Notes under the pieces: generated by a model
The model's input: the letters and a program-made list of their open reading frames with translations, nothing else
What the model was told of the DNA's origin: nothing
The model's database searches: none
DNA from: Phycisphaerae bacterium
Lineage (GTDB): Bacteria; Chloroflexota; Anaerolineae; 4572-78; J111
Length of the DNA stretch: 64,000 bases
Reading direction: 5' to 3'
Assembly (NCBI GenBank): GCA_028285035.1
Contig: JANQQF010000070.1
Coordinates: 62,001-126,000, forward strand
Made by a program: the position numbers and the translations under genes
Part shown: positions 43-32,806 of the stretch, in pieces
How the letters are laid out: the number at the start of each line of letters is the position of its first letter
How positions within the stretch are numbered: the first letter of the stretch is position 1

Positions 43-1170
43 TTGAACAACTTAGCAAAAACAAAGAAAATAGCGGCAATCGTTCCTATCTACAATGAAA
101 TGTCAAATGTAAATTTTGAATTTAGAGAACGGCTCGTCTATTTCCAAAATCTAGCTAAACAACATAACGCTTTATTCGACTTGTTCATCGTGGATGATGG
201 TTCAACGGATGGGACACAATCGGAGATTTTAGGTTTTGTTACACAAAATAACGTCGCTTTTCAGGTCGTCACGCTGCCTCATAATCGTCAGAAAGCCGGA
301 GCCATCAAAGAGGCAATCGCTCCCCTAAGTCATCCTTATATATTAACAATTGATTTTGATACTGATCTTGGAAACCTTGAAAATTTAGATGTTATCCTCA
401 ACCAGATGGAAGGCAATCCAAAATACATGGGATGTGCTTTACACATCTTAATCTATACTGAGGCCTCTGGCATTTTGGCTGCTTATTACCGGTTTATCTT
501 TCATTTGGGGAATGCCGCCAATGATAAGTCATTACAAGATGGGGGAGATGTTCTCATGATTCCTGGGGCAGCGGCACTTTATCGCCGATCTGCTCTCCAG
601 CAAATCTTGGCTGAACATAGCGAGCAATATTGCGCGGACGATTGGGAGACAACGATTATTGGGTTAAGATTGGGCTATCAAGCCTTTCAATCCTCACGTG
701 TGCAGGCGATGACTCGCTACCCACAGCGTTTTTTGGCTGTTCATAATCAGCAGTTTTGCTGGAAGGCTGGTCATCTACGAGTAATTGTCAAAGAATGGAC
801 TTATTGCTGGGATCAGATAAAAGGCTTCAGTCGCTTTGGGCAACAAGTTCTAGCTGAGATTGGTTATGTCCTGCTTCATCTCATGTTACCGATCGTTTTG
901 GCTTGCTTATTTATCCTGAATTGGACCAGTGCCTTATTTTTACTTATGACAATATATGGCCTCATCATTTTGCTGTTATTGCGAATATCAAATTATCCTC
1001 AATCTACGGTGAGTGGCAACATATCCTTAAAAATCATTTTGTTGTTTCCCTTTCTTTGGTTCTTAATTGAGGCTCCAGCCTCATGGCGGGCAATGGGGCA
1101 ATTGAGTTTGGTACCCTTAAAGCGAAGTCTCGCAGCATTATTAGAATTTAGATTGTTGACAAAAGGTTAA
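43..1170 (+). CDS. Family 2 glycosyltransferase with C-terminal membrane helices
   Basis: A 375-residue GT-A fold glycosyltransferase that should transfer a sugar from a nucleotide-sugar to a lipid or glycan acceptor at the inner face of the membrane. The sequence shows the N-terminal IVPIYNE strand, the DDGSTDGT motif, a DFDTDL metal-binding DxD, and a later ADDWE segment that fits the catalytic acidic site. Three or so hydrophobic helices close the protein (about residues 275-350). The TTG start is preceded by AAGGTGG at 32-38. It ends one base before the next glycosyltransferase, so the two are probably co-transcribed. The sugar and acceptor cannot be told from sequence. Confidence 0.85.
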   Translation: MNNLAKTKKIAAIVPIYNEMSNVNFEFRERLVYFQNLAKQHNALFDLFIVDDGSTDGTQSEILGFVTQNNVAFQVVTLPHNRQKAGAIKEAIAPLSHPYILTIDFDTDLGNLENLDVILNQMEGNPKYMGCALHILIYTEASGILAAYYRFIFHLGNAANDKSLQDGGDVLMIPGAAALYRRSALQQILAEHSEQYCADDWETTIIGLRLGYQAFQSSRVQAMTRYPQRFLAVHNQQFCWKAGHLRVIVKEWTYCWDQIKGFSRFGQQVLAEIGYVLLHLMLPIVLACLFILNWTSALFLLMTIYGLIILLLLRISNYPQSTVSGNISLKIILLFPFLWFLIEAPASWRAMGQLSLVPLKRSLAALLEFRLLTKG

Positions 1171-1171
1171 A

Positions 1172-1975
1172 ATGTTACAACCACCTCCACCAATTTTTGT
1201 TATAAGTTTAAAGCGATCAACTGCTCGTCAAGCCTACCTGCAGGCCCAGTTAGCCTCTCTAGGGTGTTCCTTTGAGTTTGTTGAGGCTGTTGACTGGCAA
1301 ACACTATCGGCAAGAGATCTGCAGATGTATAGCCCAAAGAAAACAATAGAAAATTATGGGCGTGAACTGGTTCTGTGTGAAATTGCCTGCGCCATGAGCC
1401 ATTTAAATATCTACAAAAAGATGATCGAGGAAGATATCGATGAAGCTGTCATTCTTGAAGATGATGTGTTTATTAAGCCGGGTCTTGTAGATTTCTTAAC
1501 CCATCGAGGGCAATTACCTTCCGATTATTTCGTAATTTGGTTGGGGTATGGTTATGGTACCTCAGGTCATTGGTATTTCGAGAAAAATGTCGGTTCTTTT
1601 TGGTCTCAACAGAAGCTGATATCCTCTCATCGACTGGTCAAATTGGTTGCCTACCCTAATGGGGCGTACGGTTATCTTATCAATCGGGATGGAGCCAAAG
1701 CCTTGTTAGATTTAGCTTATCCAATCAGTTTTGTTGCAGATGGTTTATTAACGGGTCAAAAGACTCAAACGCTGTCTGTGCCACTATATGCTATACAACC
1801 GCCTTGTGTTGTCCATAGCGATATGTTCGGTTCAACCATGACAGACAGAGATGAGATAGCAAAGGCTGCCGAGAAACCACAAATATTTGGCTCAGAATTT
1901 ACGGCCCTTGATAAGATTTATTTCAATACAACAATTTTTTTGGCTCGATTAGGTTTGATCAAGTTGGTAAAGTAA
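1172..1975 (+). CDS. Family 25 glycosyltransferase (LPS-type)
   Basis: A 267-residue protein matching family GT25 (LPS/glycan galactosyl- or glucosyltransferases). It opens with the family-typical IFVISLKRSTAR strand, has the CAMSHLNIYKKMIEE helix, then the ILEDDVFI segment that holds the metal-binding acidic residues. Length is normal for the family. It starts 1 base after the upstream GT2 gene, so translation is probably coupled. The pair may decorate a lipid or exported glycan; whether this belongs to the lipid/polyketide cluster that follows about 120 bases downstream is inference from strand and closeness only. Confidence 0.85.
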   Translation: MLQPPPPIFVISLKRSTARQAYLQAQLASLGCSFEFVEAVDWQTLSARDLQMYSPKKTIENYGRELVLCEIACAMSHLNIYKKMIEEDIDEAVILEDDVFIKPGLVDFLTHRGQLPSDYFVIWLGYGYGTSGHWYFEKNVGSFWSQQKLISSHRLVKLVAYPNGAYGYLINRDGAKALLDLAYPISFVADGLLTGQKTQTLSVPLYAIQPPCVVHSDMFGSTMTDRDEIAKAAEKPQIFGSEFTALDKIYFNTTIFLARLGLIKLVK

Positions 1976-2094
1976 TGCATAGCGTTATAAGCCTTGTGCA
2001 ATATAGTTTCTTTTAGTTCAAGGTAAAGTGTTTGAACGTTTACTAAAACCGCCAAACCTTTAATTGCGACACACTAAATCCGGGAGTTTATCAT

Positions 2095-4530
2095 TTGTTT
2101 TTAGGCCCTCTACATCTGCGTAAAATCATCCAAGATATTTGGCTTTATAAAACTCGCACGCTACTCATCGTGCTGACGATTGCCATTGGGGTATTTGCCG
2201 TGGGGACAATTGCCCGAACTTGGCTTCTCTTATCAAGAGAATTGGCCACAAGCTATACAGCAGTGAATCCAACAAGCGCAGTTATAGTTGTTGAGGGTGT
2301 GGTCACTGATGACATTGTTAAAGCAATTCAAAATATGCCTGACGTGGGGCAAGCTGAAGGTCGTTATCGTCTTAGTTCGCAGCTCGTTGGCCCAAATGAC
2401 AGTCGTCAATTACTTAGACTGACCACATTAAGTGATTTTGAGCATCTACAAATTGACAAAATCTCACCAGAAAGTGGTGCTTGGCCGCCCCAAGATCGAA
2501 CGGTTCTCATTGAGAGATCATCTCTTGCTTTAATGCGATCAGATGTACAGTTACCTAGGGTCATTGGGGATCAATTGATTGTCAAGCGTCCTAATGACAA
2601 GCTCACAGAACTAACCTTTTCGGGCGTTGTTCACGATTTAACCGAATTTCCAACCGCCTTTTCAAATATCATTTATGGCTACATCACGCCTGGCACGTTG
2701 AAACGTTTGACGGGTGTAGAGGGGTATAATCGGATTCACATCGTAGTAGCTAAAAACCCGCTTGATGTCAATCATATTGAGTACGTTGCCGATTTGGTCG
2801 CAGATCGCTTGGAGGCCCAAAGAATAACCGTGGCCAATCGCGAAATCCCTATTCCGAGACAACACCCATTAAGTAACATTGTTCAATCGGTACTTTTTAT
2901 ATTGGGCGTTCTCAGCTTCTTCTCTCTATTACTCAGCGCTTTCTTAGTCATCAATACTGTTTCAGCCATTCTAGCCCGCCAAGTTCGGCATATCGGCATC
3001 ATGGAAACTATTGGCGCAGGACAGGGAAACATCATTTTGATTTATATGGGAATGGTTTTGTTGTTTGGCGTATTTGGGCTGATTATCGCTCTCCCGCTCG
3101 CTACAATTGCAGGCCAACAATTAACGGATTTCATGGCCAACTTACTCAACTTCAAAGTGACTGATTTTGGCTTACCCCTTTGGATTTATATCTTGGATGT
3201 ATTTGCAGGTATAGGGGTTCCTTTGGTTGTCGCTTCATTCCCGATCCGCAAAGGGGCTAGTATCACCATCCGCGAAGCCGTCAGTGATTCTGGTAATGAA
3301 CAGGCTGGACAGTTTGGCCAGAGTATGTTGGACCAACTCCTAAATCGCCTGCGACAACTACCTTCAACCCTGCTTTATACCATTCGCAATATTTTTCGGC
3401 ACAAGACCCGTCTAGCTATCACCCTGACCGCCCTAACCCTGGCCAGTACATTCTTTATGGTGGTCATTAGTGTACGAGCCTCGTTATTGCTCACCATCGA
3501 CGATATTGCCGCTTATTGGAGTCAGGATATCAAAGTTTTCTTCGGTAAATCCTATCGTCTGTCTGAACTTGAACGGGCGACCACCGGCATTCCTGGGGTG
3601 GTCAGAACTGAAGGTCGTTTAGAGAAAAATGCGATTCGTATTCGACCTGATGGGGGGCAAAGTGCGGACAGCATTGCGATCTTCGGAGTCCAGCCAGAGT
3701 CAGGCTTTCTTAACCCCACCTTGATTGAGGGGCGTTGGTTACAGCCTGACGATACAAATGCACTCGTTGTCAATATCGAGATGATTAAAGCAGAACCTGA
3801 TATCGCGATTGGCGAGACAATAAAACTCGACATTGATAACCATGAGGCAGAGTGGCAGGTGGTAGGCATTGTTACTGGGCAACTGATTGGCGGGGGTGAG
3901 ATTCTTGACCCCATCATGTACACGAATTACCCGTTTTTTGCTCAAACGTTAGGTCAAACGAATCAAGTCAATCGTATTTTGGTTGAAACAGAACGACACA
4001 ATCGTATTCATCAAGCTGAAGTCGCTCAAATACTAAAAATCGAGCTTGAACGTGCTGGGATAAGTACGGGCTTTACCGAGCTTAATGCTGACATTCGAAC
4101 CGCTTTGGGCAACTTGTTCAATGTTCTCGTCAGCTTGATGGTATTGCTTGCCCTGTTACTGGCAGTAGTAGGAGGGCTCGGTCTGATGGGAATGATGAGC
4201 CTTAGTGTTCTCGAACGTACCCGTGAGTTAGGTGTCGTACATGCCATTGGGGGTAATGATCTCATTGTGCTACAGATTGTCATCACCGAAGGCGTATTTA
4301 TCGGGATATTGAGTTGGCTGTTGGGTGTCATCTTAGCAATTCCCCTTAGTCAGGTTCTAAGCAATGCAATTGGCCAGATATTCTTGAGCGTTCCCTTGAC
4401 CTACACGATGTCTATTGGCGGCATGTTGTTGTGGCTAGTCATTGTCATCCTTTTATCAGCCCTAGCCAGCTATCTTCCTGCCCAAAATGCCTCAAATATG
4501 AGTATCCGTGAAGCCTTATCCCACGAGTAG
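2095..4530 (+). CDS. ABC transporter permease with two FtsX domains
   Basis: An 811-residue membrane protein with the layout of large FtsX/MacB-type permeases: an N-terminal helix (about residues 20-42), a periplasmic MacB-like domain, a three-helix FtsX block (about 260-390), then a second helix-periplasmic domain-FtsX block (about 440-800). The sequence MMSLSVLERTRELGVVHAIG is the usual FtsX coupling segment. Family members move lipids or lipoproteins across the envelope with an ATPase partner. No ATPase gene lies nearby, so the partner must be encoded elsewhere. TTG start. Its stop codon lies 11 bases before the acyltransferase start, so it is likely part of that operon and may export the product. 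Confidence 0.85.
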   Translation: MFLGPLHLRKIIQDIWLYKTRTLLIVLTIAIGVFAVGTIARTWLLLSRELATSYTAVNPTSAVIVVEGVVTDDIVKAIQNMPDVGQAEGRYRLSSQLVGPNDSRQLLRLTTLSDFEHLQIDKISPESGAWPPQDRTVLIERSSLALMRSDVQLPRVIGDQLIVKRPNDKLTELTFSGVVHDLTEFPTAFSNIIYGYITPGTLKRLTGVEGYNRIHIVVAKNPLDVNHIEYVADLVADRLEAQRITVANREIPIPRQHPLSNIVQSVLFILGVLSFFSLLLSAFLVINTVSAILARQVRHIGIMETIGAGQGNIILIYMGMVLLFGVFGLIIALPLATIAGQQLTDFMANLLNFKVTDFGLPLWIYILDVFAGIGVPLVVASFPIRKGASITIREAVSDSGNEQAGQFGQSMLDQLLNRLRQLPSTLLYTIRNIFRHKTRLAITLTALTLASTFFMVVISVRASLLLTIDDIAAYWSQDIKVFFGKSYRLSELERATTGIPGVVRTEGRLEKNAIRIRPDGGQSADSIAIFGVQPESGFLNPTLIEGRWLQPDDTNALVVNIEMIKAEPDIAIGETIKLDIDNHEAEWQVVGIVTGQLIGGGEILDPIMYTNYPFFAQTLGQTNQVNRILVETERHNRIHQAEVAQILKIELERAGISTGFTELNADIRTALGNLFNVLVSLMVLLALLLAVVGGLGLMGMMSLSVLERTRELGVVHAIGGNDLIVLQIVITEGVFIGILSWLLGVILAIPLSQVLSNAIGQIFLSVPLTYTMSIGGMLLWLVIVILLSALASYLPAQNASNMSIREALSHE

Positions 4531-4541
4531 GAGCTATTCTT

Positions 4542-5684
4542 TTGATCTCAGTTAAGAAAGTTGATTGCCAAGATGAAGCTCAGGTCCGCCGTTTTGTCGA
4601 GCTACCTTATCGGCTCTACACAGATTGTCCGCAGTGGCTCCCCCCCCCCAAAGACGACATGATGCTTTATCTCAATCGAGAGGCCCATCCTTTTTATCAG
4701 CACTCAGTAGCCGATTTCTTTATCGCGGTCCGAGATGGCCGAGATGTTGGGCGGCTCGCCGTGATTGAGGATCGAATTAATAATCAAAGCCATGGCGTGT
4801 CTGAGGCGTGGTTCTACTTTTTTGAGTGCGAAGATGATCTGGCAGCGACCATCCTGCTTTTTGAACATGCTTACGATTGGGCCAAATCCCGAGATCTGAA
4901 TCATTTGATTGGCCCCCGAGGCTTCACTGTTCTGGATGGAATGGGCCTGTTAGCCGACGGATTTCAGCACCCACAACACACCTTGATGACGACCTACAAC
5001 TTCAATTACTATCCACACTTGCTAGAAACAATAGGCCTGAAGACGAAATCAGAAAGGCTGGTTTCTTATCACTTCAACATTGATCAGATGCAACTTCCGT
5101 CTTGGGTTCATTCTGTGGCTGAATGGGTTCAGCAGCAACACAAGCTATCTTTAAAAAGTTTTGCCGATTTCGATGAATTAATAGCTTGGGGACCGGCTTT
5201 ATTTCAAATGTATAGCCAACTCTTTGGCGCACCCGCAAATAATCAGAGCCAAGATGAGGCAGAGGCTCAAGCCGAATTGCCAACTCAAGACATTATGGCC
5301 ATGGTTCAGATCTTCCTCAAAATGGGAGTTAATCCGCACTTCACCAAAGCCATTATGAGCAATGAGCAACTTGTCGGTCTCGTGCTCGGCTTCTCTGATT
5401 TATCGCCGCTGTTACGTGAAAATCCTGGACACCTCAATATGGACAAGCTGCCTGGGGCCATCGAGGCTACACCAGCCATTATTTTTAACGGCTTTGGCGT
5501 TATTCCCGAATTCCAGCTACAAGGCTTGAATGCCTTTCTCTTCTCCGAAATGACCAAGTTGGGCCAGAGTGTAGGCGTAAATGAAGTCCATCTCATTTTA
5601 ACCAATGTGAAAATGCAACCAGATATGGAAATTGTGGGGTTACGGCCACACTTCACCCATCGGGTGTATTATAAAAATTTATAA
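4542..5684 (+). CDS. GNAT-like acyltransferase, YghO-type
   Basis: A 380-residue protein that I match to the YghO-like GNAT family. Diagnostic stretches are the LPYRLYTDCPQWLPP opening, HPFYQHSVADFF, GRLAVIED and IGPRGFTVLDGMGLL. Members of this broad family include the bacterial ceramide synthase of Caulobacter, which N-acylates an amine; this link is from memory and the exact subfamily is unchecked. It begins with TTG; the GGAG of its ribosome site overlaps the stop of the permease gene. It is followed 11 bases later by a ketosynthase and then a carrier protein. That context suggests it takes an acyl chain from a carrier or CoA, and it could supply the product-release step the synthase lacks. 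A run of eight C residues lies at about 4642. Confidence 0.7.
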   Translation: MISVKKVDCQDEAQVRRFVELPYRLYTDCPQWLPPPKDDMMLYLNREAHPFYQHSVADFFIAVRDGRDVGRLAVIEDRINNQSHGVSEAWFYFFECEDDLAATILLFEHAYDWAKSRDLNHLIGPRGFTVLDGMGLLADGFQHPQHTLMTTYNFNYYPHLLETIGLKTKSERLVSYHFNIDQMQLPSWVHSVAEWVQQQHKLSLKSFADFDELIAWGPALFQMYSQLFGAPANNQSQDEAEAQAELPTQDIMAMVQIFLKMGVNPHFTKAIMSNEQLVGLVLGFSDLSPLLRENPGHLNMDKLPGAIEATPAIIFNGFGVIPEFQLQGLNAFLFSEMTKLGQSVGVNEVHLILTNVKMQPDMEIVGLRPHFTHRVYYKNL

Positions 5685-5695
5685 AGTGGAGCATT

Positions 5696-6940
5696 ATGAC
5701 TGACAAGCAGAGAGTTGTCATCACCGGTAGTGGTATCGCCTCACCGATTGGCAACGATGTGGATACCTATTGCCAAAACTTATATCAGGGTCAATATGCT
5801 ATTGGCCCGATTACGACCTTCGACACAACAGATCACACGACCAAACTTGGTGCCTGTATAGCCACAATCCCGAGTCCAGGCAACCTAACCCCGCTTGAAG
5901 CAAAAATGAGTTCACAACTGTCTCTACTCTCAGCCTTTGCCGCCGAGCAAGCTGTGGTCCAATCGGGATTAGATTTTTCAGTAGAGAATCCTCAGCAGGT
6001 TGGTGTCATTGTGGGATCAGGCTTCCAAAATCTGTATGACTTAGAGGATTTTTACCAGAAATTTTATAAACATACAGGACGCCCCTCACCAACAACCATT
6101 CCTTTAAATATGGGCAACGCCCCCGCCAGCCGTATTGCGATGACCTATGACTTGAAGGGGGTGGTCAAAAGCGTCAGTACTGCCTGTTCCTCTGGATTTA
6201 CCGCCCTCTTGGATAGTGTTCAGCTTATCGCGGAAGGAAAACAGGAGGTGATGATTACAGGGGGGAGCGATTTAGTTGTGTGCGAGACCATCGTTACCGC
6301 TTGGGAACGCATGCGGGTATTGACCCGTGAAAAAGAGGACCCGGCCCTAGCCTGCCAACCCTTTGATCAAAATCGCAAGGGTATCGTATTGGGGGACGGC
6401 GCGGCCTTTTTTGTTGTCGAGTCCTATGAGCATGCCAAGCAACGGAATGCTCCCATTTTAGCTGAGGTGACGGGGATGTTTCAAAATTCCGATAGCCTCG
6501 ATTTGGTCAAACCCGACTCTGAAGGCGAAATTCGCTGCATCGAGCAATCGTTAACCCAAGCCAATGTTATCCCTGAGGATATGGGTATGATCTATGCACA
6601 CGCAACCGGAACCCGTCTGAATGATACAGTTGAATATCAAAGTTTACATGAGGTCTTTGGTACACATTTGAAAGAAATCCCACTTTGTGGCTTAAAGTCA
6701 ATGCTAGGTCACACAATGGGCGCTTCTGGCCCAATGGCCTTGGTCGCGGCCCTAGGCAGTTTACAGTCTGGCTATGTCTACCCGATTCCTAATTTAAATC
6801 AGCTTGAAGAGGGGATGGAACTACGCATAAAAACCACAGGGGAAACTGTAGAATCAATCAACCATATTTTAATCAATACTTTTGCCTTCGGCGGCATCAA
6901 TGTCTGCCTGGTTATTTCAAAATTGAGAGGTGAATCCTAA
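5696..6940 (+). CDS. Free-standing beta-ketoacyl-ACP synthase (FabF-type)
   Basis: A 414-residue ketosynthase of the KAS II/FabF class. It condenses an acyl thioester with malonyl-ACP. All three catalytic residues are visible: Cys164 in STACSSGF, His302 in YAHATGT and His339 in LGHTMGAS. ATG start with GGAG at 5687-5690. Its stop overlaps the start of the acyl carrier protein gene (TAATG), showing tight coupling. The genome must have another housekeeping FabF, so this copy probably serves the pathway of the large synthase, either building a starter chain or acting on its own carrier protein. Confidence 0.9.
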   Translation: MTDKQRVVITGSGIASPIGNDVDTYCQNLYQGQYAIGPITTFDTTDHTTKLGACIATIPSPGNLTPLEAKMSSQLSLLSAFAAEQAVVQSGLDFSVENPQQVGVIVGSGFQNLYDLEDFYQKFYKHTGRPSPTTIPLNMGNAPASRIAMTYDLKGVVKSVSTACSSGFTALLDSVQLIAEGKQEVMITGGSDLVVCETIVTAWERMRVLTREKEDPALACQPFDQNRKGIVLGDGAAFFVVESYEHAKQRNAPILAEVTGMFQNSDSLDLVKPDSEGEIRCIEQSLTQANVIPEDMGMIYAHATGTRLNDTVEYQSLHEVFGTHLKEIPLCGLKSMLGHTMGASGPMALVAALGSLQSGYVYPIPNLNQLEEGMELRIKTTGETVESINHILINTFAFGGINVCLVISKLRGES

Positions 6941-7194
6941 TGACTAACGTTCGTCAAACCCTAATTGACATCATCAAAGAGCAAGCCAAGTTGGAAGAGG
7001 CTGAATTTATCAGCGCCAACTCCTTTGAAAATCTGATCGACTCCCTCACGCTCCTGGAAATCGTTTACGAAATCGAAGAAAATTTTGATTTAGAAATCGA
7101 CGATGAACAAATTCCCGAGCTTCGCTCTTTCGATGAAGTCGTCACACTTGTGAGCAAAATGGTTCAAGAAAAACAAAACGCGGAAAACGCCTAG
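6940..7194 (+). CDS. Free-standing acyl carrier protein
   Basis: An 84-residue acidic acyl carrier protein. Ser35 in the LIDSLTLLE motif is the expected phosphopantetheine site. The start codon overlaps the stop of the ketosynthase gene and the stop lies six bases before the giant synthase, so the three are one translational unit. It is distinct from the two ACP domains inside the synthase. Probable partner of the free-standing ketosynthase and perhaps of the YghO-like acyltransferase. No phosphopantetheinyl transferase is visible in the window. Confidence 0.9.
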   Translation: MTNVRQTLIDIIKEQAKLEEAEFISANSFENLIDSLTLLEIVYEIEENFDLEIDDEQIPELRSFDEVVTLVSKMVQEKQNAENA

Positions 7195-7200
7195 GATCGA

Positions 7201-10200
7201 ATGAGCCAATTATCCTCAACCATTGTCACAAACTACACCACCCTTGTTGACGTCCTTCAACAACAAGCTCACCACCAACCCAACAAACAAGTGTTCACTT
7301 TCCTACAAGATGGCGAGCAGGAAGCAGCCAAGTTAACCTTTGCCGAGCTCGATCAAAAGGCACGAGCTATTGCGGCTCAATTGCAAGAATTAGAGATAGC
7401 TGGACAGCAAGCCCTGTTGTTGTACCCGCCAGGGCTAGATTTTATCGGCGCTTTCTTTGGCTGTCTGTATGCTGGGGTTGTCGCTGTGCCAACTTACCCG
7501 CCTCGGCAAAATCAAAAATCAGTTCGGCTGGACAAATTGACCAACGATGCTGAAACAGTAGTGGTTTTAACACACGAAGCGTTATCTGGTGATTACCATC
7601 GCGCTTTTTCACAAACACCAGCTCTTAACAATTTACCACAAATCACAACCGATACGCTTCGGCTTGATTTGGCTGATTCTTGGGCACCTCCAACGATACA
7701 AGCCGAACATTTGGCGTTTTTGCAATACACCTCCGGCTCAACCGGAACACCAAAAGGCGTAATGGTCAGCCATCAAAACTTGATACACAACTCAGCCTTA
7801 ATTTATCAACATTTCGGGCACAGCCCTGACTCGGTTGGGGTCAGTTGGTTGCCACCTTATCACGATATGGGCTTAATTGGTGGTATCATCCAAACGGTTT
7901 ACAGTGGTGGGCAGTCGATTCTAATGTCTCCAGTGGCCTTTTTGATGAAGCCATTTCGCTGGCTGCAGACCGTGTCCCGTTATCAAGCCGTAACCAGTGG
8001 CGGGCCAAACTTTGCCTATGATCTATGCGTGGAAAAGATCACGCCAGAGCAACGGGCCAAGCTGGACCTATCCCATTGGCGGGTCGCGGCAACAGGGGCT
8101 GAACCCGTTCGGGCTGATACCATCCAGCGGTTTTCCGAAACCTTTACCGAATGTGGCTTTAAGGCATCAGCCTTTTATCCTTGCTACGGGATGGCTGAAA
8201 CAACCTTGATGGTTTCCGGTGGCGGGCCACAATCTCCAACAATTGAACTTGAAATCGATAAAGCAGCCCTCACTCAAAATCGGGTTGAAATTAGGGAGGC
8301 GAAGTCGCCCCAAACCCAGACAGTTGTTGGCTGTGGGCAAAATATGCCCGATCAGACATTAATCATCGTTAATCCTAAGACATTGACTCCTTGCCCCTCG
8401 GACCAAATCGGCGAAATTTGGGTTTCGGGGAAAAGTGTGGCGCAGGGGTATTGGCAACGGAACGAGGAAACTAAAGCGGTTTTTGGGGCACAACTTACTG
8501 CCTCCCCTCAATCCCCCCCAAAGGGGAGAAGGCTAAATTCCCCTTCCCGGAGGGAGGAGAGAGAATTCCTCCGCACCGGCGACCTAGGATTCCTGCACAA
8601 CGGAGAGTTATTCATCACCGGTCGTCTTAAGGACCTCATCATCATTCGGGGTAATAACCACTACCCACAAGACATTGAGTACACCGTCGCACAAAGTCAC
8701 CCAGCCCTCCGCCCAGGCTTTGGCGCCGCGTTTTCAGTGGATGCAGAAGGGGAAGAGCGGCTGGTCATCGTGCAGGAGGTCAAACGTAACCATCGCCGCA
8801 CATTTAATGAAGATGAGGTTGTTATAGCCATTCGACAAGCCGTGTCTCAAACGCACGAGTTACAGGTTTATGCGATTGCTTTGCTAAAAATGGGAAGCTT
8901 GCCCATCACCTCAAGCGGCAAAGTCCAACGTCAGGCCAGTCGTCAACAGTTTCTGGAGAGCAATTTAACCACGTTGGGTGAATGGCAATTGGCGACTGCA
9001 AAAGTATCACCAAAAGAGTCGAAGGTTCTCACACCGCGAAAGAATGATTTCACCACAACAATGATTTCGACGTGGCTGGTGGCCAAACTATCTGAGCAAC
9101 TCACCCTTTCGCCAACCGAAATTGATGTTGACGCTCCTTTCGCCCAATACGGACTTGACTCCAAAACGGCCCTCACGCTGGCGGGCGAACTTGAGGAATG
9201 GCTCGGGCAATCGCGGTCGCCCACCCTGATTTATGATTTTCCCACGGTCAATTTGTTGGCCCAGCATCTGGCAACAAATGACGAGCCAGCCCAAGCAAAA
9301 TCGCAGCCAACCTATCAATCTCACAAAAACGAAGCCATTGCCATCATCGGCCTAGGCTGCCGATTTCCGGGAGCAGAAAGTCCGACCGCTTTTTGGAAGC
9401 TTCTCAAAAATGGGCAGGATGCCATTCGGCCCGTTCCAGCCAATCGACCGCATTTACAAGCGGAATTTACCCAACACAACCTACCTCAATGGGGTGGTTT
9501 TTTAGAGCAAATCGATCACTTTGATCCGTTCTTTTTTGAAATTTCGCCCCACGAAGCCACCGAAATGGACCCTCAACAACGCCTTCTGCTTGAGGTGAGT
9601 TGGGAAGCCTTAGAAAATGCAGGCATTGTGCCAGCTTCACTAAAAGAGAGTCAAACAGGTGTGTTCATCGGAATCAGCACCAATGACTACGCGCAGTTAC
9701 CCAGTAAGCGAACGGCTTTATCTGGCACGGGTAATGCCCTAAGCATCGCGGCCAATCGTCTCTCCTATCTGCTCAATCTACGGGGACCAAGCTGGGCTGT
9801 TGATACAGCCTGCTCTTCCTCGTTGGTGGCCGTACATCAAGCCGTAGGGAGTTTGCGTAGTGGCGAATGCAATCTTGCTTTGGCTGGTGGGGTTAACCTC
9901 ATTTTACGGGCCGAGTTGACCGCTGCCTTTCTAGAAGCAGGCATGTTAGCCCCGGATGGTCGCTGTAAAACCTTTGATGCTGAGGCGGATGGCTACGTCC
10001 GAGGCGAAGGGGCTGGTGTTGTCGTTTTGAAACGATTATCTGACGCTGAACGAGATGGTGACCAAATTTTAGCCGTCATTCGGGGTTCGGCGGTGAATCA
10101 CGATGGGCGAAGCAATGGGCTGACAGCCCCTAACGGACCAGCCCAGCAAGAGGTTATTCACCAGGCCCTATCGAATGCAAATCTGGCGGCTGATCAGCTT

Positions 10201-13200
10201 GGCTATATCGAAGCCCACGGAACAGGAACCAGCTTGGGTGATCCCATCGAGATCAACGCCCTCAAGGCCACATTATCCTCCAATCAAGCCGCTTTAATTG
10301 GCTCTGTCAAGACCAACATCGGCCACTTGGAGGCAGCCGCTGGAATTGCGGGTCTTATTAAAGTCGTCCTCTCTCTAAAAAACAATCAAATTCCACCCCA
10401 CCTCAACTTAAATACCCTCAATCCGCTGATTTCATTTGAGAATACTAACCTATCGATCCCAACAGGGCTACAAAGCTGGCCAAATGAACGCCGCCTTGCT
10501 GGGATTAGTTCATTTGGATTTGGCGGCACCAATGCTCACCTCATCATTGAGGCAGCCCCTGATGTAAAACCTAGAGAAAAGCCAACGTCGCTTGATCGAC
10601 CATTACACCTCCTGACCTTGTCTGGCAAAAATCAAGGTGCCTTACAGACTTTAGCGCAAAGCTACGCCCGATTTCTTGAACAACATCCAGATACAGCCTT
10701 GTCAGATATTTGCTACACGGCCAATACCAAACGATCCCATTTCCACCATCGACTGGCCGTTCAGGCTGAGACCTCCGCACAACTACAGGCACAACTCCAG
10801 GCTTTTTCTAGGGGCAAACGCGTTTCAGGTCTCATGACCGGGCGAGCACCCAAAAACAAATCGCCAAATATCGCCTTTCTGTTTACTGGACAAGGCTCGC
10901 AAACGATAAATATGGGCCGGGCGCTTTATGAAACCGAAGCCACATTTCGCGAAGTGATTGATACTTGCAATGAAATTTTAGAGCCTCATATAGAGACGCC
11001 ACTGCTCGACATTTTATATGCACCGGAAAATGAGAAAGCTGAGGCCCTGCTGCACCAAACTCGGTACACTCAGCCAGCCTTGTTTGCCCTTGAGTACGGG
11101 TTAGCAAAGGTGTGGCAATCCTGGGGAATTGAGCCGCAAATCGTTCTCGGTCATAGTTTGGGCGAGTACGTGGCGGCTTGTGTGGCAGGCGCGTTCACTT
11201 TGGAGGAAGGGCTACGCCTGATGGCGGAACGGGGCAGGTTAATGCAGGAATTGCCTCAAACCGGACAAATGGCGGCTGTCTTTGCCACAGAGGGTCAAGT
11301 CAAGCAAGTAATTCAGCCGTTCTTGGAGAGCGTATCAATCGCTGCGATTAACAGCCCAAACAATGTCGTTATTTCGGGCGAGACTAAGGCGATTGAGGCC
11401 ATTGTGACTCAGCTAAAAACAAGCGGTATTGATACCAAATCGCTCATCGTATCACACGCGTTCCATTCCACTTTGATGGAACCGATATTGTCCGAGCTTG
11501 GAAAAAAGGCCGAGCAGATTGATTTTCAGCCATTACAGCTTCCGCTGATATCCAATGTAACGGGCCAAGTTTTCGAACTCGGCCACATCTTGGACGCAGC
11601 CTATTGGACACAGCACACCCGACAGCCCGTCCGATTTACCGATAGCCTTAGCACAGCTCTCAGTCAGAAATTCGATCTATTTTTAGAAATCGGACCGAGA
11701 CCCATTTTATCAGATTTAGGCCGTTTTCAAGATCAAGGTCAGGCCACTTGGCTATCATCACTTAACCCAGACAGCGATGCGTGGGCAGCAATGTTTGATA
11801 GTCTGGCTTATCTTTATGTAGCCGGGGCTGATGTTGGTTGGACCAATATTTACCCGAAAGATCAGCATCACCACCTCCCCCTACCCACTTACCCCTTCCA
11901 AAGAAAGCGATACTGGCTTTCCCCTCAGACCGTGACCACGCAGCCATCTATTCTTAGTCAACAGGAGCCGCTTGTGATGGACTCTCAAATTAATCCGTGG
12001 CCAAATATTGCCCCAGAAACGATGTCTCGTGCCACCCAAATCCTTTCAATTTTGCAAAATCGAGCCGCCGAGTTGTTACGGGCTGAGCCAGATGAGATTG
12101 AGGTTGACAGCAGTTTCGTCGAGCTAGGTGTTGGATCCCTGGCCATCGTCGAGTTCATCCGCTATGTTGAGCAAAACTTTGGCCTACGCATTGAGGCTCA
12201 GCTCTTCTTTGAAGAGCTAAAGACATTGGAGGACTTAGCTACCTATCTTGATCGGGAGTTACCAGCCGAGGCCCCCTTGCCCCTAGCCGTTAATGGCACC
12301 CGTCAGACGGCAACGCCAACATCAATAAAAAGCAATCAGCTTTACTACCAAATTCGTTGGGAGCAAAAGCCTCTTTTCACAGAATTAGACAAACAAGGTT
12401 TGTCACAGACGAACTGGCTCATTTTAAGTGATGAGGCTGGCGTCGCTACAAAGCTGGCTACAGAATTGGAAAAGCATGGTGCCTGTTGCCATTTGATATC
12501 TTATGGACCGCTGGATCAGATAAAGTTATCAATTACCTGGCATTTAGCCGACAATATTCCTCACAATATCATCAATTTATGGCCATTAGATATACCCTCA
12601 TTTGATGATACAAGCTATGAAAGCTTGGCAACACAGTTAGATCAACGCCTGACCAATACAGTGGGTGTACTTCAGCACTTGATCGAAAACAGACAGAGAC
12701 AAGAGGCACGGTTATGGTTTATCACCCAGGGAAGCCAGCCCATTGGGTCACACCTTAGCCTTGCTGTGGGACAAGCCCCGTTCTGGGGGCTAGGGCGCAC
12801 ATGTGCACTTGAGCATCCTGAGTGTTGGGGTGGTTTAATTGATTTGGATTTGACGCCCCCCAATGGGCAGACTGCCCAGCAGATTTTGGCTGCCATATTA
12901 AGTGAAAGCAACGAGAACCAAATTGTGTTTCGACAAGGAACCCGCTATGTTCCGCGTCTAGAACAAACGCCTCCACCAGCACAATCAAGCGTGACTATCC
13001 AAAACGAGGCCAGCTATTTGATAACTGGTGGGCTTAAGGGCGTTGGTTATGAAGTGGCTCGTTGGTTAGCGCAACAAGGGGCTGGGCATCTCGTTCTACT
13101 TGGTCGAACCCCCTTGACGACCAATGATCAAGCGCAACGCATTCAAGATTTGAAAGCTCTTGGCACCACAGTTGAATACAGGGCTGTTGATGTGACAGAC

Positions 13201-15195
13201 CTTGCTGCGATGCGAGCATTTTGGCAGTCGCTCCAAGACAATAGCATCCCACCAATTCGCGGCATCATCCACTGCGCCTCAGTATGGCAGGATGAGCAGG
13301 GTCAATCATTAGTTCAACCCCTGACCTTGCTCAATCCAGCTGCTTTTTCAGCCGTAATGCGCCCCAAGGTCTTGGGCACATTGTCACTTCTACAACATCA
13401 AAGCGATCTTGATTTCTTTTTACTCTTTTCCTCGGCCGCTTCGCTGATGGGGTCAATGGGGCAAGGAAGTTATGCAGCAGCCAATGCGTTTCTTGATGGG
13501 CTGGCGCATCATTTGCAACAAGCAGGGCAGCCAGCCCTCAGCCTCAATTGGGGAGCAATCGGAGAGGTTGGTTTTGGTGGGACGACTACTGGTCGACAAG
13601 TTCACGAAACGTGGGAGACACTTGGTATCGGGCGTATTTCACCGTCCCAAGTTCTCACCTCAATTGCCCAACTTGCAGGCAGTCATGTAGCTCAGATGGG
13701 CATCATGGCGATAGATTGGACCCGGTTGGGCCAAGTTTATCCCACAATTCGAGATATGCCGTGGCTCACCAAGGTATTTGACACACGAAATGATGAACAA
13801 ACGATCCATACAGATCATTCCATGGCTGATCAATTAGCCTCACTTCAGGTAAATTTAACCAATGAGCTATCCAATTTATCAGGCCCCGAAACAGGCTTAG
13901 AGCGCGTGATTCAGCAACAACTGCAAGTGATGAGCGAGCAGTTAGCGTTGTTACGAGACAGTCATACGACGAACATAACAGACGGGGCAAATCCGGCTCC
14001 CCCTCAAACGATGTCTCAATCTCCTACCATCATTACACCCAACGACACCAACCCCAACATTGCGCCTGCTCAAACGCCCACGCAAGGCTTCTGGTCAAGC
14101 ACTACCTCTACGGCTCAATCAGTTCCCCAGCCCAATAAAATTATTCATAAGCCCACTGAAACACTTGAGTTCAGCTTGTTCTACTTCGGCAACTATCCAG
14201 CAGACTTCCAGGCCGAAAAGTATGATCTGCTGTTTGAAGGGGCTCGTTTTGCAGATGAACATGACTTTACAGCCGTGTGGGTCCCCGAGCGTCATTTCCA
14301 CGCCTTTGGTGGCTTTTCGCCCAATCCCTCGCTCATTGCAGCAGCACTGGCTCGGGAAACGAGGCATGTTCAATTACGGGCTGGGAGTGTGGTGCTACCC
14401 ATTCATCATCCGGTGCGAGTGGCAGAAGAATGGGCGCTGGTGGACAATCTGTCGCAAGGGCGAGTAGGGCTATCATTTGCCTCGGGCTGGCACCCCAATG
14501 ATTTTGTCTTTGCCCCTGAAGCCTTTGGCAACCACCGAGCACAGATGTTTGAACAAATCACCACGGTTCAAAAGTTGTGGCAGGGAGAGGCCGTTCCGCT
14601 GAGGGATGGGGGGGGACAAACCATTGAGGTCAAAATTTCACCGTTACCCAAGCAGCCAACCCTCCCCACCTGGCTAACTATTGTGAAAAATCCCCACACG
14701 TTTATCAAAGCCGGAGAAATCGGAGCGGGTGTCTTGACCAATCTGATGGGGCAATCCATCGAAGATTTAGCCCACAATATCCAGCTATATCATTCGGCTT
14801 TAGTCGAGCATAATCACAGTCTGGAAACGGCGCAGGTGACGGTGTTACTGCACACCTTTCTTGGCGATGATCTTGACGCTGTTCGTGCTCAGGCCCGTCA
14901 GCCCTTCTTAGACTATCTCAAGACCTCGGTTGGCCTCTTCAAAAATTTAGTACAGAGTTTGGGAATGCCCATCGAGCTTGAGCAATTGACTGAGGCAGAA
15001 CAAAATTACATCCTGTCGATGGCCTATGACCGCTATGTTCAAACGAGTGCGCTAATCGGCACCCCAAATAGTTGTGCTGAAATAGTTACGCAATTAAAGG
15101 AGATCGGTGTCACCGAAATTGCTTGTTTTGTCGATTTTGGCTTGGATAAGGAAGATGTCTTGGAGGGGCTAACTTATATCAAGGCATTGAAATAG
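7201..15195 (+). CDS. Hybrid type I PKS: FAAL-ACP-KS-AT-ACP-KR-LLM monooxygenase
   Basis: A 2664-residue single-module polyketide synthase. Domains in order: fatty acyl-AMP ligase about 10-590 (YTSGSTGTPKG near 175, GRLKDLIIIRG near 475); ACP1 with Ser654; ketosynthase 711-1130 with Cys871, His1006 and His1042; acyltransferase about 1222-1530 with Ser1319 in GHSLGEY and HAFH at 1419-1422, which points to malonyl-CoA; ACP2 with Ser1646; ketoreductase about 1710-2160 with GGLKGVG near 1945 and Tyr2091; a helical stretch and Pro/Thr-rich linker about 2205-2318; and a luciferase-like FMN monooxygenase of the MupA/Atu3671 natural-product type at 2320-2664. There is no DH, ER or thioesterase. Predicted path: load a fatty acid, add one malonyl unit, reduce the beta-ketone, oxidise (perhaps alpha-hydroxylate), release by another protein. 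The microginin MicA enzyme has a comparable AL/KS/AT/monooxygenase plan, but with an aminotransferase where this has KR. Confidence 0.92.
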   Translation: MSQLSSTIVTNYTTLVDVLQQQAHHQPNKQVFTFLQDGEQEAAKLTFAELDQKARAIAAQLQELEIAGQQALLLYPPGLDFIGAFFGCLYAGVVAVPTYPPRQNQKSVRLDKLTNDAETVVVLTHEALSGDYHRAFSQTPALNNLPQITTDTLRLDLADSWAPPTIQAEHLAFLQYTSGSTGTPKGVMVSHQNLIHNSALIYQHFGHSPDSVGVSWLPPYHDMGLIGGIIQTVYSGGQSILMSPVAFLMKPFRWLQTVSRYQAVTSGGPNFAYDLCVEKITPEQRAKLDLSHWRVAATGAEPVRADTIQRFSETFTECGFKASAFYPCYGMAETTLMVSGGGPQSPTIELEIDKAALTQNRVEIREAKSPQTQTVVGCGQNMPDQTLIIVNPKTLTPCPSDQIGEIWVSGKSVAQGYWQRNEETKAVFGAQLTASPQSPPKGRRLNSPSRREEREFLRTGDLGFLHNGELFITGRLKDLIIIRGNNHYPQDIEYTVAQSHPALRPGFGAAFSVDAEGEERLVIVQEVKRNHRRTFNEDEVVIAIRQAVSQTHELQVYAIALLKMGSLPITSSGKVQRQASRQQFLESNLTTLGEWQLATAKVSPKESKVLTPRKNDFTTTMISTWLVAKLSEQLTLSPTEIDVDAPFAQYGLDSKTALTLAGELEEWLGQSRSPTLIYDFPTVNLLAQHLATNDEPAQAKSQPTYQSHKNEAIAIIGLGCRFPGAESPTAFWKLLKNGQDAIRPVPANRPHLQAEFTQHNLPQWGGFLEQIDHFDPFFFEISPHEATEMDPQQRLLLEVSWEALENAGIVPASLKESQTGVFIGISTNDYAQLPSKRTALSGTGNALSIAANRLSYLLNLRGPSWAVDTACSSSLVAVHQAVGSLRSGECNLALAGGVNLILRAELTAAFLEAGMLAPDGRCKTFDAEADGYVRGEGAGVVVLKRLSDAERDGDQILAVIRGSAVNHDGRSNGLTAPNGPAQQEVIHQALSNANLAADQLGYIEAHGTGTSLGDPIEINALKATLSSNQAALIGSVKTNIGHLEAAAGIAGLIKVVLSLKNNQIPPHLNLNTLNPLISFENTNLSIPTGLQSWPNERRLAGISSFGFGGTNAHLIIEAAPDVKPREKPTSLDRPLHLLTLSGKNQGALQTLAQSYARFLEQHPDTALSDICYTANTKRSHFHHRLAVQAETSAQLQAQLQAFSRGKRVSGLMTGRAPKNKSPNIAFLFTGQGSQTINMGRALYETEATFREVIDTCNEILEPHIETPLLDILYAPENEKAEALLHQTRYTQPALFALEYGLAKVWQSWGIEPQIVLGHSLGEYVAACVAGAFTLEEGLRLMAERGRLMQELPQTGQMAAVFATEGQVKQVIQPFLESVSIAAINSPNNVVISGETKAIEAIVTQLKTSGIDTKSLIVSHAFHSTLMEPILSELGKKAEQIDFQPLQLPLISNVTGQVFELGHILDAAYWTQHTRQPVRFTDSLSTALSQKFDLFLEIGPRPILSDLGRFQDQGQATWLSSLNPDSDAWAAMFDSLAYLYVAGADVGWTNIYPKDQHHHLPLPTYPFQRKRYWLSPQTVTTQPSILSQQEPLVMDSQINPWPNIAPETMSRATQILSILQNRAAELLRAEPDEIEVDSSFVELGVGSLAIVEFIRYVEQNFGLRIEAQLFFEELKTLEDLATYLDRELPAEAPLPLAVNGTRQTATPTSIKSNQLYYQIRWEQKPLFTELDKQGLSQTNWLILSDEAGVATKLATELEKHGACCHLISYGPLDQIKLSITWHLADNIPHNIINLWPLDIPSFDDTSYESLATQLDQRLTNTVGVLQHLIENRQRQEARLWFITQGSQPIGSHLSLAVGQAPFWGLGRTCALEHPECWGGLIDLDLTPPNGQTAQQILAAILSESNENQIVFRQGTRYVPRLEQTPPPAQSSVTIQNEASYLITGGLKGVGYEVARWLAQQGAGHLVLLGRTPLTTNDQAQRIQDLKALGTTVEYRAVDVTDLAAMRAFWQSLQDNSIPPIRGIIHCASVWQDEQGQSLVQPLTLLNPAAFSAVMRPKVLGTLSLLQHQSDLDFFLLFSSAASLMGSMGQGSYAAANAFLDGLAHHLQQAGQPALSLNWGAIGEVGFGGTTTGRQVHETWETLGIGRISPSQVLTSIAQLAGSHVAQMGIMAIDWTRLGQVYPTIRDMPWLTKVFDTRNDEQTIHTDHSMADQLASLQVNLTNELSNLSGPETGLERVIQQQLQVMSEQLALLRDSHTTNITDGANPAPPQTMSQSPTIITPNDTNPNIAPAQTPTQGFWSSTTSTAQSVPQPNKIIHKPTETLEFSLFYFGNYPADFQAEKYDLLFEGARFADEHDFTAVWVPERHFHAFGGFSPNPSLIAAALARETRHVQLRAGSVVLPIHHPVRVAEEWALVDNLSQGRVGLSFASGWHPNDFVFAPEAFGNHRAQMFEQITTVQKLWQGEAVPLRDGGGQTIEVKISPLPKQPTLPTWLTIVKNPHTFIKAGEIGAGVLTNLMGQSIEDLAHNIQLYHSALVEHNHSLETAQVTVLLHTFLGDDLDAVRAQARQPFLDYLKTSVGLFKNLVQSLGMPIELEQLTEAEQNYILSMAYDRYVQTSALIGTPNSCAEIVTQLKEIGVTEIACFVDFGLDKEDVLEGLTYIKALK
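8500..8566 (+). repeat. C/G-rich palindromic repeat read through in the FAAL domain
   Basis: Inside the adenylate ligase the DNA changes to C-runs and G-runs with inverted-repeat character (CTCCCCT then AAGGGGAG; CCTTCCC then GGGAGG). It encodes a Ser/Pro/Arg-rich insertion between GAQLTA and FLRTGDLGFL, where the ligase family normally has a short loop. This looks like a dispersed REP-type element that inserted in frame and is translated. Copies elsewhere in the genome were not available to check. Confidence 0.5.
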
Positions 15196-15317
15196 ACGGT
15201 AACTATCAAGGGAACTAATTAGAAAATTCATTAGCCTGCGAGTACAATATCGGCTATATGATGCGTCTCATGGGGAGATTGTATCGATAGAAGGTGTATA
15301 CTTTGAAAGGGTCCGTT

Positions 15318-16412
15318 ATGACAACGCTTGAAAATAATAAATTTGAAATTGGATTATACTCTTTTGCCGAATTAACCCCTGATCCCCACACTGGTCATCA
15401 AATCAGCCCAGCGCAACGCTTGGAAAACTTGCTGGAAACCGTTGAGTTAGCTGAACAGGTTGGGCTTGATGTCTTTGCGCTGGGTGAACATCATCGGCCT
15501 GATTTTGTCTCCTCTTCACCCGCCGTAATTTTGGCAGCAGCAGCGGCCCGTACCAAAACCATCCGCTTGAGTAGTGCGGTGACCGTGCTTAGTTCGGATG
15601 ATCCCGTCCGGGTGTTTCAATCCTTTGCCAGCCTTGACCTGCTCGCCAAAGGTCGGGCAGAGATTATGGCGGGGCGTGGTTCTTTCATCGAGTCATTTCC
15701 TCTCTTTGGCTATGATCTCAATGATTACAACGAACTCTTTGCGGAAAAACTAGAGTTATTGATGCGGATTCGCGCTGAAGAGCGGGTGACTTGGGCTGGC
15801 AAACATCGCGCCCCCCTCCAAGATCAAGCGATCTACCCCCGACCCTATCAAGAAGACTTACCGATTTGGGTGGCCGTTGGGGGCACGCCCCAATCGGTGG
15901 TTCGGGCCGCTGGCCTGGGCTTACCGATGGCTTTGGCCATCATTGGAGGGATGCCCGAGCAGTTTGGGCCATTTACTCAATTGTATCGCCAAGCCTGGGA
16001 ACAGGCGGGGCACGCTCCAGCCCGCCGCCGCCTCAGCATCAACTCCCACGGCTACATCGCCGACACACGCAGTCAAGCCATTGATGAGGCCTTCCCCTCA
16101 TTTGCCTTGATGATGAATAAAATCGGGCAGGAGCGTGGCTGGCCACCGATGACCCGGCAACAGTTTGAGGCATCTTGCACCCTGCGCGGGGCTAACTATG
16201 TGGGCAGCCCTGATGACATCATCGAGAAAGCCCTCTTCCAACACGAACTATTTGGCCACAATCGGCTGTTGCTCAAATTCAGCGTCAGCACTATCCCCCA
16301 CGATAAAATGATGCATATGATTGAGTTATTCGGCACAAAAGTTGCGCCTGTCCTGCGCCAGGAGATTGCTAACCGGACGGAGAAACAGCCAAAGGTGGAA
16401 GTGGATAGATGA
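15318..16412 (+). CDS. Stand-alone luciferase-like FMN monooxygenase (Atu2307/SP_0267-like)
   Basis: A 364-residue LLM-class flavin-dependent oxidoreductase with a TIM-barrel fold. Typical stretches are [10 protein letters not shown] at the start, [34 protein letters not shown] and [18 protein letters not shown] chose the ATG at 15318, preceded by GAAAGGG at 15304-15310, over an in-frame GTG at 15294, because the alignment-typical region starts there. It lies 122 bases after the synthase on the same strand. It is a different subfamily from the LLM domain fused to the synthase, so the cluster may carry two flavin oxidations. It could also be an unrelated neighbour. Substrate unknown. Confidence 0.85.
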
Positions 16413-32004: not shown

Positions 32005-32087
32005 TCTTTTACGAATAAAATTTGCTTTCTAAAATAAAACACAAAACTCTACACTCAAAAAATCAACGATCTTCGATGGAGATGATG

Positions 32088-32759
32088 ATGCAAAAAGTTC
32101 CTTCGGTTCCTTTAGAATTTGAAAATTACGATGAGCCTATGATGCTGGAGAGGGCGATGACTTTTTTTGACCTGCTCAAAATGCGTCATAGCACTCGTGA
32201 CTTTGCCGATAGACCTGTCCCGATGGAGGTCATCAAGCAATGTTTAGAAACAGCGGGCCGTGCGCCCAGCGGGGCGAACCAACAACCCTGGCACTTCGTG
32301 GTTGTGACCGATCCCGATATCAAACATCAAATTCGTTTGGCAGCAGAAGAGGAAGAGCGGGCCTTTTACGAGGGACGTGCCCCCGAAGAGTGGCTTGAGG
32401 CTTTAGCCCCACTCGGCACCGATCCCGACAAATCCTTTATTGATCGAGCAGGTTGTCTCATTGTGATCTTTGCCCAAGCCTATGGCTTAAAAGCGGATGG
32501 GTCAAAGATCAAACATTACTATGTCCAAGAGTCGGTCGGCATTGCCTCTGGCTTTCTGATCGCTGCACTGCACAATGCGGGTCTGACTTGCCTAACCCAC
32601 ACCCCGAGTCCGATGAACTTCTTGGCCGAAATTTTGGGGCGGCCCAAAAATGAGCGGGCTTATATCAATCTAGTGGTTGGCTACCCTGCCGAAGATGCCG
32701 AGATTCCCATCCACGCCACACATAAAAAAGCCTTGGATGAGTTTGTAAGTTTTGTTTAA
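32088..32759 (+). CDS. Iodotyrosine-deiodinase-like flavin dehalogenase
   Basis: A 223-residue nitroreductase-fold FMN protein that closely follows the pattern of iodotyrosine deiodinase (IYD): [52 protein letters not shown] and [22 protein letters not shown] removes halogen from halotyrosines by reduction with FMN. The three residues that hold the tyrosine zwitterion in the animal enzyme (Glu, Tyr, Lys; Glu157, Tyr161, Lys182 in human) line up with Glu90, Tyr94 and Lys115 here by my hand alignment. GGAG at 32078-32081 favours the ATG at 32088, with ATG 32076, 32082 and 32085 as alternatives. A second nitroreductase gene follows 47 bases later. Confidence 0.8.
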
Positions 32760-32806
32760 AGGCCCAAGCTTTGCCATCTCAATCGGCAACTTAAAAGGAG
32801 ATTATT

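Follow-up and report, generated by a model that had tools for sequence, protein, structure and literature searches.

According to PMC9386255 (section 13), dihydroceramide synthesis involves the genes aasR, acpR, spt and epi together with an N-acyltransferase gene, YghO or Caulobacter CC_1154, and YghO is a presumed ceramide-synthase orthologue. Polyketide synthases (PKSs) also contribute to sphingolipids, and in PMC12134224 (section 8) they stand on the base side of the molecule. Among luciferase-like monooxygenases (LLMs), MupA hydroxylates beta-ketoacyl-ACP ahead of the KR (excerpt of PMC10952193), and PuwE has been proposed to give a 3-amino-2-hydroxyacyl product (excerpt of PMC4219810). 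For the Black Sea, Spt-like genes and correlations with lipids (218 MAGs) have led to Chloroflexota being named likely makers of sphingolipids (excerpts of PMC11334938 and PMC12619533). The latter paper reports phytoceramides and multihydroxylated ceramides, two classes that occur in sediments and have no agreed producer.

The window analysed here (the whole stretch of DNA, 64,000 nt) carries a run of genes that, judged from sequence, is moderately likely to supply the N-acyl side of a (glyco)lipid pathway of ceramide type, whose base would come from a separate protein, P0244. The gene types of the Rhodobacterial aasR-epi-acpR-spt-yghO/cerS set (Caulobacter, E. coli BL21) are also clustered in the closest relative of the window, locus L002 of Anaerolineales H5_CFX5. 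Shared with that set are an acyl-AMP ligase, an ACP, an oxoamine synthase (AOS), an epimerase-type reductase and a YghO-family N-acyltransferase, with an export permease nearby. Unlike in that set, the ligase, ACP and AOS are fused in L002 and P0244, with an LLM added in P0244; the permease is of the FtsX type instead of LptF/G as in BL21, and the line of fatty acyl-AMP ligase (FAAL), PKS and LLM is additional in the window. The MicA and PuwE synthases of microginin and puwainaphycin share with the window FAAL loading, one malonyl module and a MupA-family LLM of the same tree grade, but they follow a PKS-aminotransferase-LLM-NRPS plan, whereas the synthase described here has, by Pfam, neither aminotransferase nor NRPS, carries a KR instead and is proposed to be released by a GNAT. 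In SgaAB of Pseudomonas MYb115 a polyketide synthase likewise serves a sphingolipid pathway, yet there an iterative PKS leads to the base, while here the N-acyl chain would come from a single module loaded by a FAAL. In the mupirocin bimodule, alpha-hydroxylation precedes ketoreduction, as we propose here, and is carried out by an LLM from the family after which TIGR04020 is named; MupA is a free enzyme, however, and the LLM of the window forms the C-terminal end of its synthase, behind the KR.

The preliminary description had recognized one intact FAAL-ACP-KS-AT-ACP-KR-LLM polypeptide with all catalytic residues and with no DH, ER or thioesterase, and all of this was borne out. All of the named open reading frames lie where they were described, and for this protein, P0001, Pfam and NCBIfam return the same order: AMP-binding at residues 19-418, ACP at about 617-671, KS at 711-1070 and AT at 1226-1507 in the N-terminal half, followed by ACP at 1618-1683, KR at 1937-2121 and Bac_luciferase at 2338-2638. 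No DH, ER or thioesterase was found in P0001 among 15 Pfam families at E <= 0.001. At the level of motifs, the active sites of the FAAL, KS, AT and KR and both carriers are intact, with YTSGST at 176 in the FAAL, DTACSSS at 868, EAHGTGT at 1004 and NIGH at 1039 in the KS, GHSLG at 1317 and HAFH at 1419 in the AT, and the nucleotide, Ser and Tyr motifs of the KR at 1942, 2076 and 2091. The carrier-protein motif, by convention named DSL, reads LDSK at 652 in the first ACP and GVGSL at about 1642 in the second, where the serine is retained. The LLM domain scores 511.7 bits against TIGR04020 (cut-off 244.45), which places it in the MupA/Atu3671 group.

The same-strand arrangement and tight spacing reported for the genes from FtsX to the PKS were also found, the gaps being 11 bases (FtsX-GNAT), 11 (GNAT-KS), a 1-base overlap (KS-ACP) and 6 (ACP-PKS). 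The two glycosyltransferases (GTs) reported upstream are present on the same strand, but a gap of 119 bases between GT25 and FtsX means that they may form a separate unit. A second LLM enzyme does lie downstream, 98 bases after the PKS, but it belongs to TIGR03858 and falls outside the MupA/Atu3671 group; its nearest PDB entry is 2i7g, no similar gene was found in the run of L002, and its link to the lipid pathway is putative.

Table 1. Features of the synthase P0001 and of the genes around it, in window positions.
Feature	Position	Strand	Evidence
GT2 glycosyltransferase, 375 aa	43..1170	+	PF00535 49.9 bits
GT25 glycosyltransferase, 267 aa	1172..1975	+	PF01755 120.3 bits
FtsX/MacB-type ABC permease, 811 aa	2095..4530	+	PF02687, PF12704
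YghO/CerS-family tandem GNAT N-acyltransferase (P0002)	4542..5684	+	
FabF-like beta-ketoacyl-ACP synthase	5696..6940	+	TIGR03150 347.8 bits (below cut-off 493.75); Cys-His-His motifs
Free acyl carrier protein, 84 aa	6940..7194	+	PF00550 24.6 bits
P0001, FAAL-ACP-KS-AT-ACP-KR-LLM synthase, 2664 aa	7201..15195	+	Pfam, NCBIfam, motifs
P0001 FAAL domain (end approximate)	7255..9000	+	PF00501 residues 19-418, DIP2-like 478-591
P0001 LLM domain	14155..15192	+	TIGR04020; nearest PDB 6ket (PuwE), 514 bits
LLM2, second LLM enzyme, TIGR03858 (Atu2307/SP_0267)	15294..16412	+	502.4 bits, cut-off 462.25

In the proposed pathway, the FAAL of P0001 would load a fatty acid onto the first ACP and its KS-AT would extend the chain by one malonyl unit. 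The LLM would then 2-hydroxylate the beta-ketoacyl chain on the second ACP before the KR reduces the ketone, giving a 2,3-dihydroxyacyl-ACP. Since MupA acts before the KR and PuwE is proposed to give a 2-hydroxylated acyl product, this product is a fair inference for P0001, and the loading, single malonyl extension, 3-hydroxyl and alpha-oxidation predicted in the preliminary description are plausible by homology. The YghO/CerS-like GNAT would supply the release step that P0001 lacks, transferring the 2,3-dihydroxyacyl chain onto the amine of a long-chain base. This base is expected from P0244, probably encoded elsewhere on the same contig, which would load an acyl chain, 2-hydroxylate it with its own LLM and condense it decarboxylatively with an amino acid (serine is the best guess) into a 4-hydroxy-3-keto base of the phytosphingosine type. 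FtsX/MacB permeases serve export and GT families glycosylation; here FtsX, with an ATPase from outside the window, would export the lipid and the GTs would glycosylate it.

It is the N-terminal stretch of P0002 that is homologous with YghO (residues 14-166 in the comparison with the K-12 YghO of E. coli). P0002 alone matches YghO_BL21 at E 2.3e-15, and a profile of the GNAT family alignment A1 does so at 154.1 bits (E 1.5e-45), which places P0002 in the YghO/CerS family by sequence homology. Searches of P0002 against Pfam and NCBIfam at E <= 10 returned nothing but one chance match (SpoVIF, E 0.27), and the family profile had no match in the PDB at E <= 1. The YghO-like acyltransferase seen earlier stands as a plausible N-acylation enzyme. 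The preliminary description had not connected YghO with ceramide synthase, and it had missed the AOS and reductase genes of the relative and P0244.

The gene order FtsX-GNAT-(FAAL...LLM), which the preliminary description suggested seeking in relatives, is kept in L002, with 66% identity for FtsX and 51% for the GNAT. The L002 run begins with a FAAL-ACP-AOS protein, an epimerase-type reductase and GT28-like and Mannosyl_trans3 glycosyltransferases, and continues with FtsX, the GNAT and a radicalSAM-FAAL-ACP-LLM protein whose FAAL matches that of P0001 at 57%; an ABC ATPase, presumably cNMP-binding, precedes it. No KS or AT was found in this run, so the substrate of the L002 LLM must be plain acyl-ACP unless the enzyme works differently. 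The fusion protein itself (L002 11137-15969) is a B12-binding radical SAM enzyme joined with FAAL-ACP-LLM. In L154 (genome G212, of the same order as L002), a GNAT of the family stands beside a FAAL-ACP-AOS gene and SDRs, one of which scores 160.7 bits against KdsR (below the cut-off of 400), and a free radical SAM gene, 62% like that of L002, lies between the GNAT and the FAAL-ACP-AOS gene. The L002 reductase (3567-4496) is HpnA-like (199 bits, below cut-off), with no match to CerR_BL21 reported; it scores 17.9 bits with an ORF covering the epi gene on an E. coli plasmid and 26.6 bits with a Diaphorobacter SDR. Gene sets of the ceramide type, comprising a fatty acyl-AMP ligase, an ACP, an AOS and yghO or a relative, also occur on the plasmid records of E. 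coli PN43 (L157) and Diaphorobacter pDCB2 (L156), the latter typed as conjugative.

Scanning the genome contigs with P0002 as sole query found nothing, and alignment A1 found the loci considered here. An AOS-family gene occurred in 4 of the 79 fetched GNAT loci (1.17 Mb), against an expectation of 0.50, given the 70 matches counted over 163.9 Mb in 41 genomes (Poisson P 0.0017). Because L020 and L023 are close kin and the AOS of L071 may be there by chance, the family-wide link between GNAT and AOS is modest. It is conceivable, though in our judgment unlikely, that the GNAT instead places the 2,3-dihydroxyacyl chain on another amine, such as an amino sugar, a polyamine or an amino acid, to give an N-acyl glycolipid or aminolipid other than a ceramide. 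Two GTs lie directly upstream of the cluster, the tandem-GNAT fold is common to glucosamine N-acetyltransferases, and in the bases fetched the other 75 of the 79 loci lack an AOS, all of which agree with such a product; against it stand the homology of P0002 to YghO and the closest relatives, which have an AOS adjoining or on the contig. The listed relatives at least 49% identical to P0002 are P0004 (L002 type), with an AOS on the same contig, and P0081, with an AOS on a contig of equal size (427,555 bases).

The ceramide-type reading draws its base from P0244, a protein of 1506 residues in the order FAAL-LLM-ACP-AOS and the third match with the ACP-AOS part of the L002 protein. It lies on a 199,010-base contig, exactly the size of the contig of P0001 and P0003; this is strong, though indirect, evidence, and the contig of the window very likely encodes it. 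The same domain order is found in P0245, P0249, P0250 and P0246, the last of them shorter at the N terminus, and P0249 and the GNAT P0081 both come from a 427,555-base contig and bear a Caldilineaceae name. By tblastn of P0244, no AOS was found in the 64,000-nt window. The aminotransferase at 51577-52740 was discarded as a candidate for the AOS, since P0244 has no match there. The epimerase at 49235-50200, only 15 bits from the reductase of L002, is not supported in the role of that enzyme, and the free ACP gave no match to AcpR of BL21. The reductases of BL21, L002 and L154 had no match in the window except the KR domain of P0001.

Several observations count against the ceramide-type reading: the window shows neither an AOS nor, outside the KR of P0001, a matching reductase; most GNAT-family loci lack an AOS; the L002 reductase is not clearly CerR-like; the AOS of P0244 scores better with bioF/Kbl than with serine palmitoyltransferase (SPT); and the LLM of P0001 lies outside the AOS-linked clade. 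Among NCBIfam models, the P0244 AOS scores 361.8 bits with bioF and 331.7 with the SPT models, all below their cut-offs (640 for SPT), and its pairwise BLAST scores are 234 bits for E. coli Kbl, 202 for BL21 Spt and 168 for BioF. The L002 AOS is also highest with bioF among these models, which stay below cut-off; its PDB ranking alone is led by SPT, with two serine palmitoyltransferases at 236 and 234 bits ahead of Kbl (218), and this speaks for the ceramide-type reading. In a tree of 31 rows, in which BioF, Kbl and L154 have long branches, the P0244 clade, including a PKS-linked AOS of G193, stands apart from BL21 Spt; neither the P0244 nor the L002 AOS lies inside the Spt clade, and that of L154 groups with Spt. 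We consider it improbable that the product of P0001 feeds the AOS, in which case the PKS would supply the long-chain-base backbone, in the manner of SgaA feeding SgaB, instead of the N-acyl chain: PKS-derived sphingolipids exist (PMC12134224, section 8) and a PKS gene adjoins the same-clade AOS in G193, but the AOS proteins of P0244 and L002 have their own FAAL and ACP, and the second FAAL...LLM protein of L002 is separate as well. The weakest alternative, an ordinary FAAL-PKS lipid cluster with the equal contig size of P0244 a coincidence and the GNAT an unrelated neighbour, is very improbable: the abundance of FtsX permeases of this type, with 95 matches (E <= 1e-60) spread over 16 of 25 genomes, speaks for it, but P0244, P0001 and P0003 share the exact size of 199,010 bases and L002 keeps the FtsX-GNAT-FAAL...LLM order with an AOS in the same run.

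Of 396 Anaerolineae genomes searched with the LLM domain (E <= 1e-50), 8 had a match, and the loci fetched from the 7 besides that of L002 are NRPS/PKS assemblies with no such GNAT or FtsX in the fetched bases. The FAAL-ACP-AOS protein of L002 matched 32 of 400 Chloroflexota genomes (E <= 1e-140), nearly all through the FAAL, and only G001 and G408 along the whole length, with no GNAT among their neighbours. With the P0244 AOS (396 genomes, E <= 1e-110) only G001 and G193 were found, neither with an LLM fusion. As for FtsX, neighbours in four further genomes of the 16 matching ones (G212, G252, G319 and G297) showed an adjoining FAAL-PKS only in G212, as part of a giant NRPS-PKS. There (L133/L142, G212:C53) a like permease and an ABC ATPase adjoin the FAAL-PKS-NRPS cluster, and more than one lipid product may thus depend on exporters of this type. 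Among the listed matches (P0251-P0361), fusions in the order FAAL-ACP-AOS with a length of roughly 1080-1200 aa are common, under names that include Nostoc, Pirellulales, Thermoguttaceae and Deltaproteobacteria; P0270, P0280, P0306 and P0324 add acyl-CoA dehydrogenase-type domains in precomputed Pfam annotation.

The LLM phylogeny was built from 63 of 126 rows (62 of 125 LLM domains plus one outgroup with a very long branch). It joins the AOS fusions, the FAAL-LLM-KS lines, P0125 and L002 in one clade (100/99) and does not recover a grouping of the P0001 LLM with these AOS-linked LLMs, placing it, on a branch flagged as long, within an unresolved PuwE/MicA grade. The domain order of 119 listed relatives was read by panel BLAST, aminotransferases being left out of the panel. 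A KR directly before the LLM, with at most one ACP between, occurs in three of them (P0123, P0124 and P0125), in P0123 and P0124 within a longer line, and P0125 alone repeats the FAAL...KR-LLM plan. The earlier suggestion that KR-LLM without release domain is a new subclass is therefore only partly right, and the plan, recurring in P0125, is by itself a variant; what is new is the proposed connection to sphingolipids together with the fusion of LLM and AOS. Among the open-licence papers searched we found none joining a luciferase-like monooxygenase with sphingolipids, a fatty acyl-AMP ligase with an oxoamine synthase, or a fatty acyl-AMP ligase with both a polyketide synthase and a luciferase-like monooxygenase.

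If correct, the ceramide-type reading would link polyketide synthesis with the amide side of ceramides, a new bacterial way to sphingolipid-like membrane lipids, and it offers concrete genes and a hydroxylation chemistry for Chloroflexota sphingolipids that are open to test. Under it, plain acyl-ACP would also have to be a substrate of a MupA-family enzyme, as P0244 and L002 need, a reaction for which we found no precedent. We suggest only tentatively that Chloroflexota have an LLM route to multihydroxylated ceramides that is carrier-bound throughout, in which P0244-type proteins would hydroxylate the chain ahead of condensation and form a phytosphingosine-type base with no separate hydroxylase, and the PKS would deliver the 2,3-dihydroxy N-acyl chain directly to a YghO-type ceramide synthase. 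FMN monooxygenases need oxygen, and for this reason no link to the anoxic Black Sea water is claimed.

Elsewhere in the window, an odd fusion on the minus strand (42624-44069) combines a FeeM N-acyl amino acid synthase-like part (residues 18-172) with a Haem_oxygenas_2 iron-type redox domain (315-459). A plus-strand gene at 33667-34941 has a weak match to nSTAND3 NTPases (21.2 bits, below cut-off), and two nitroreductases lie upstream of it at 32022-33649.
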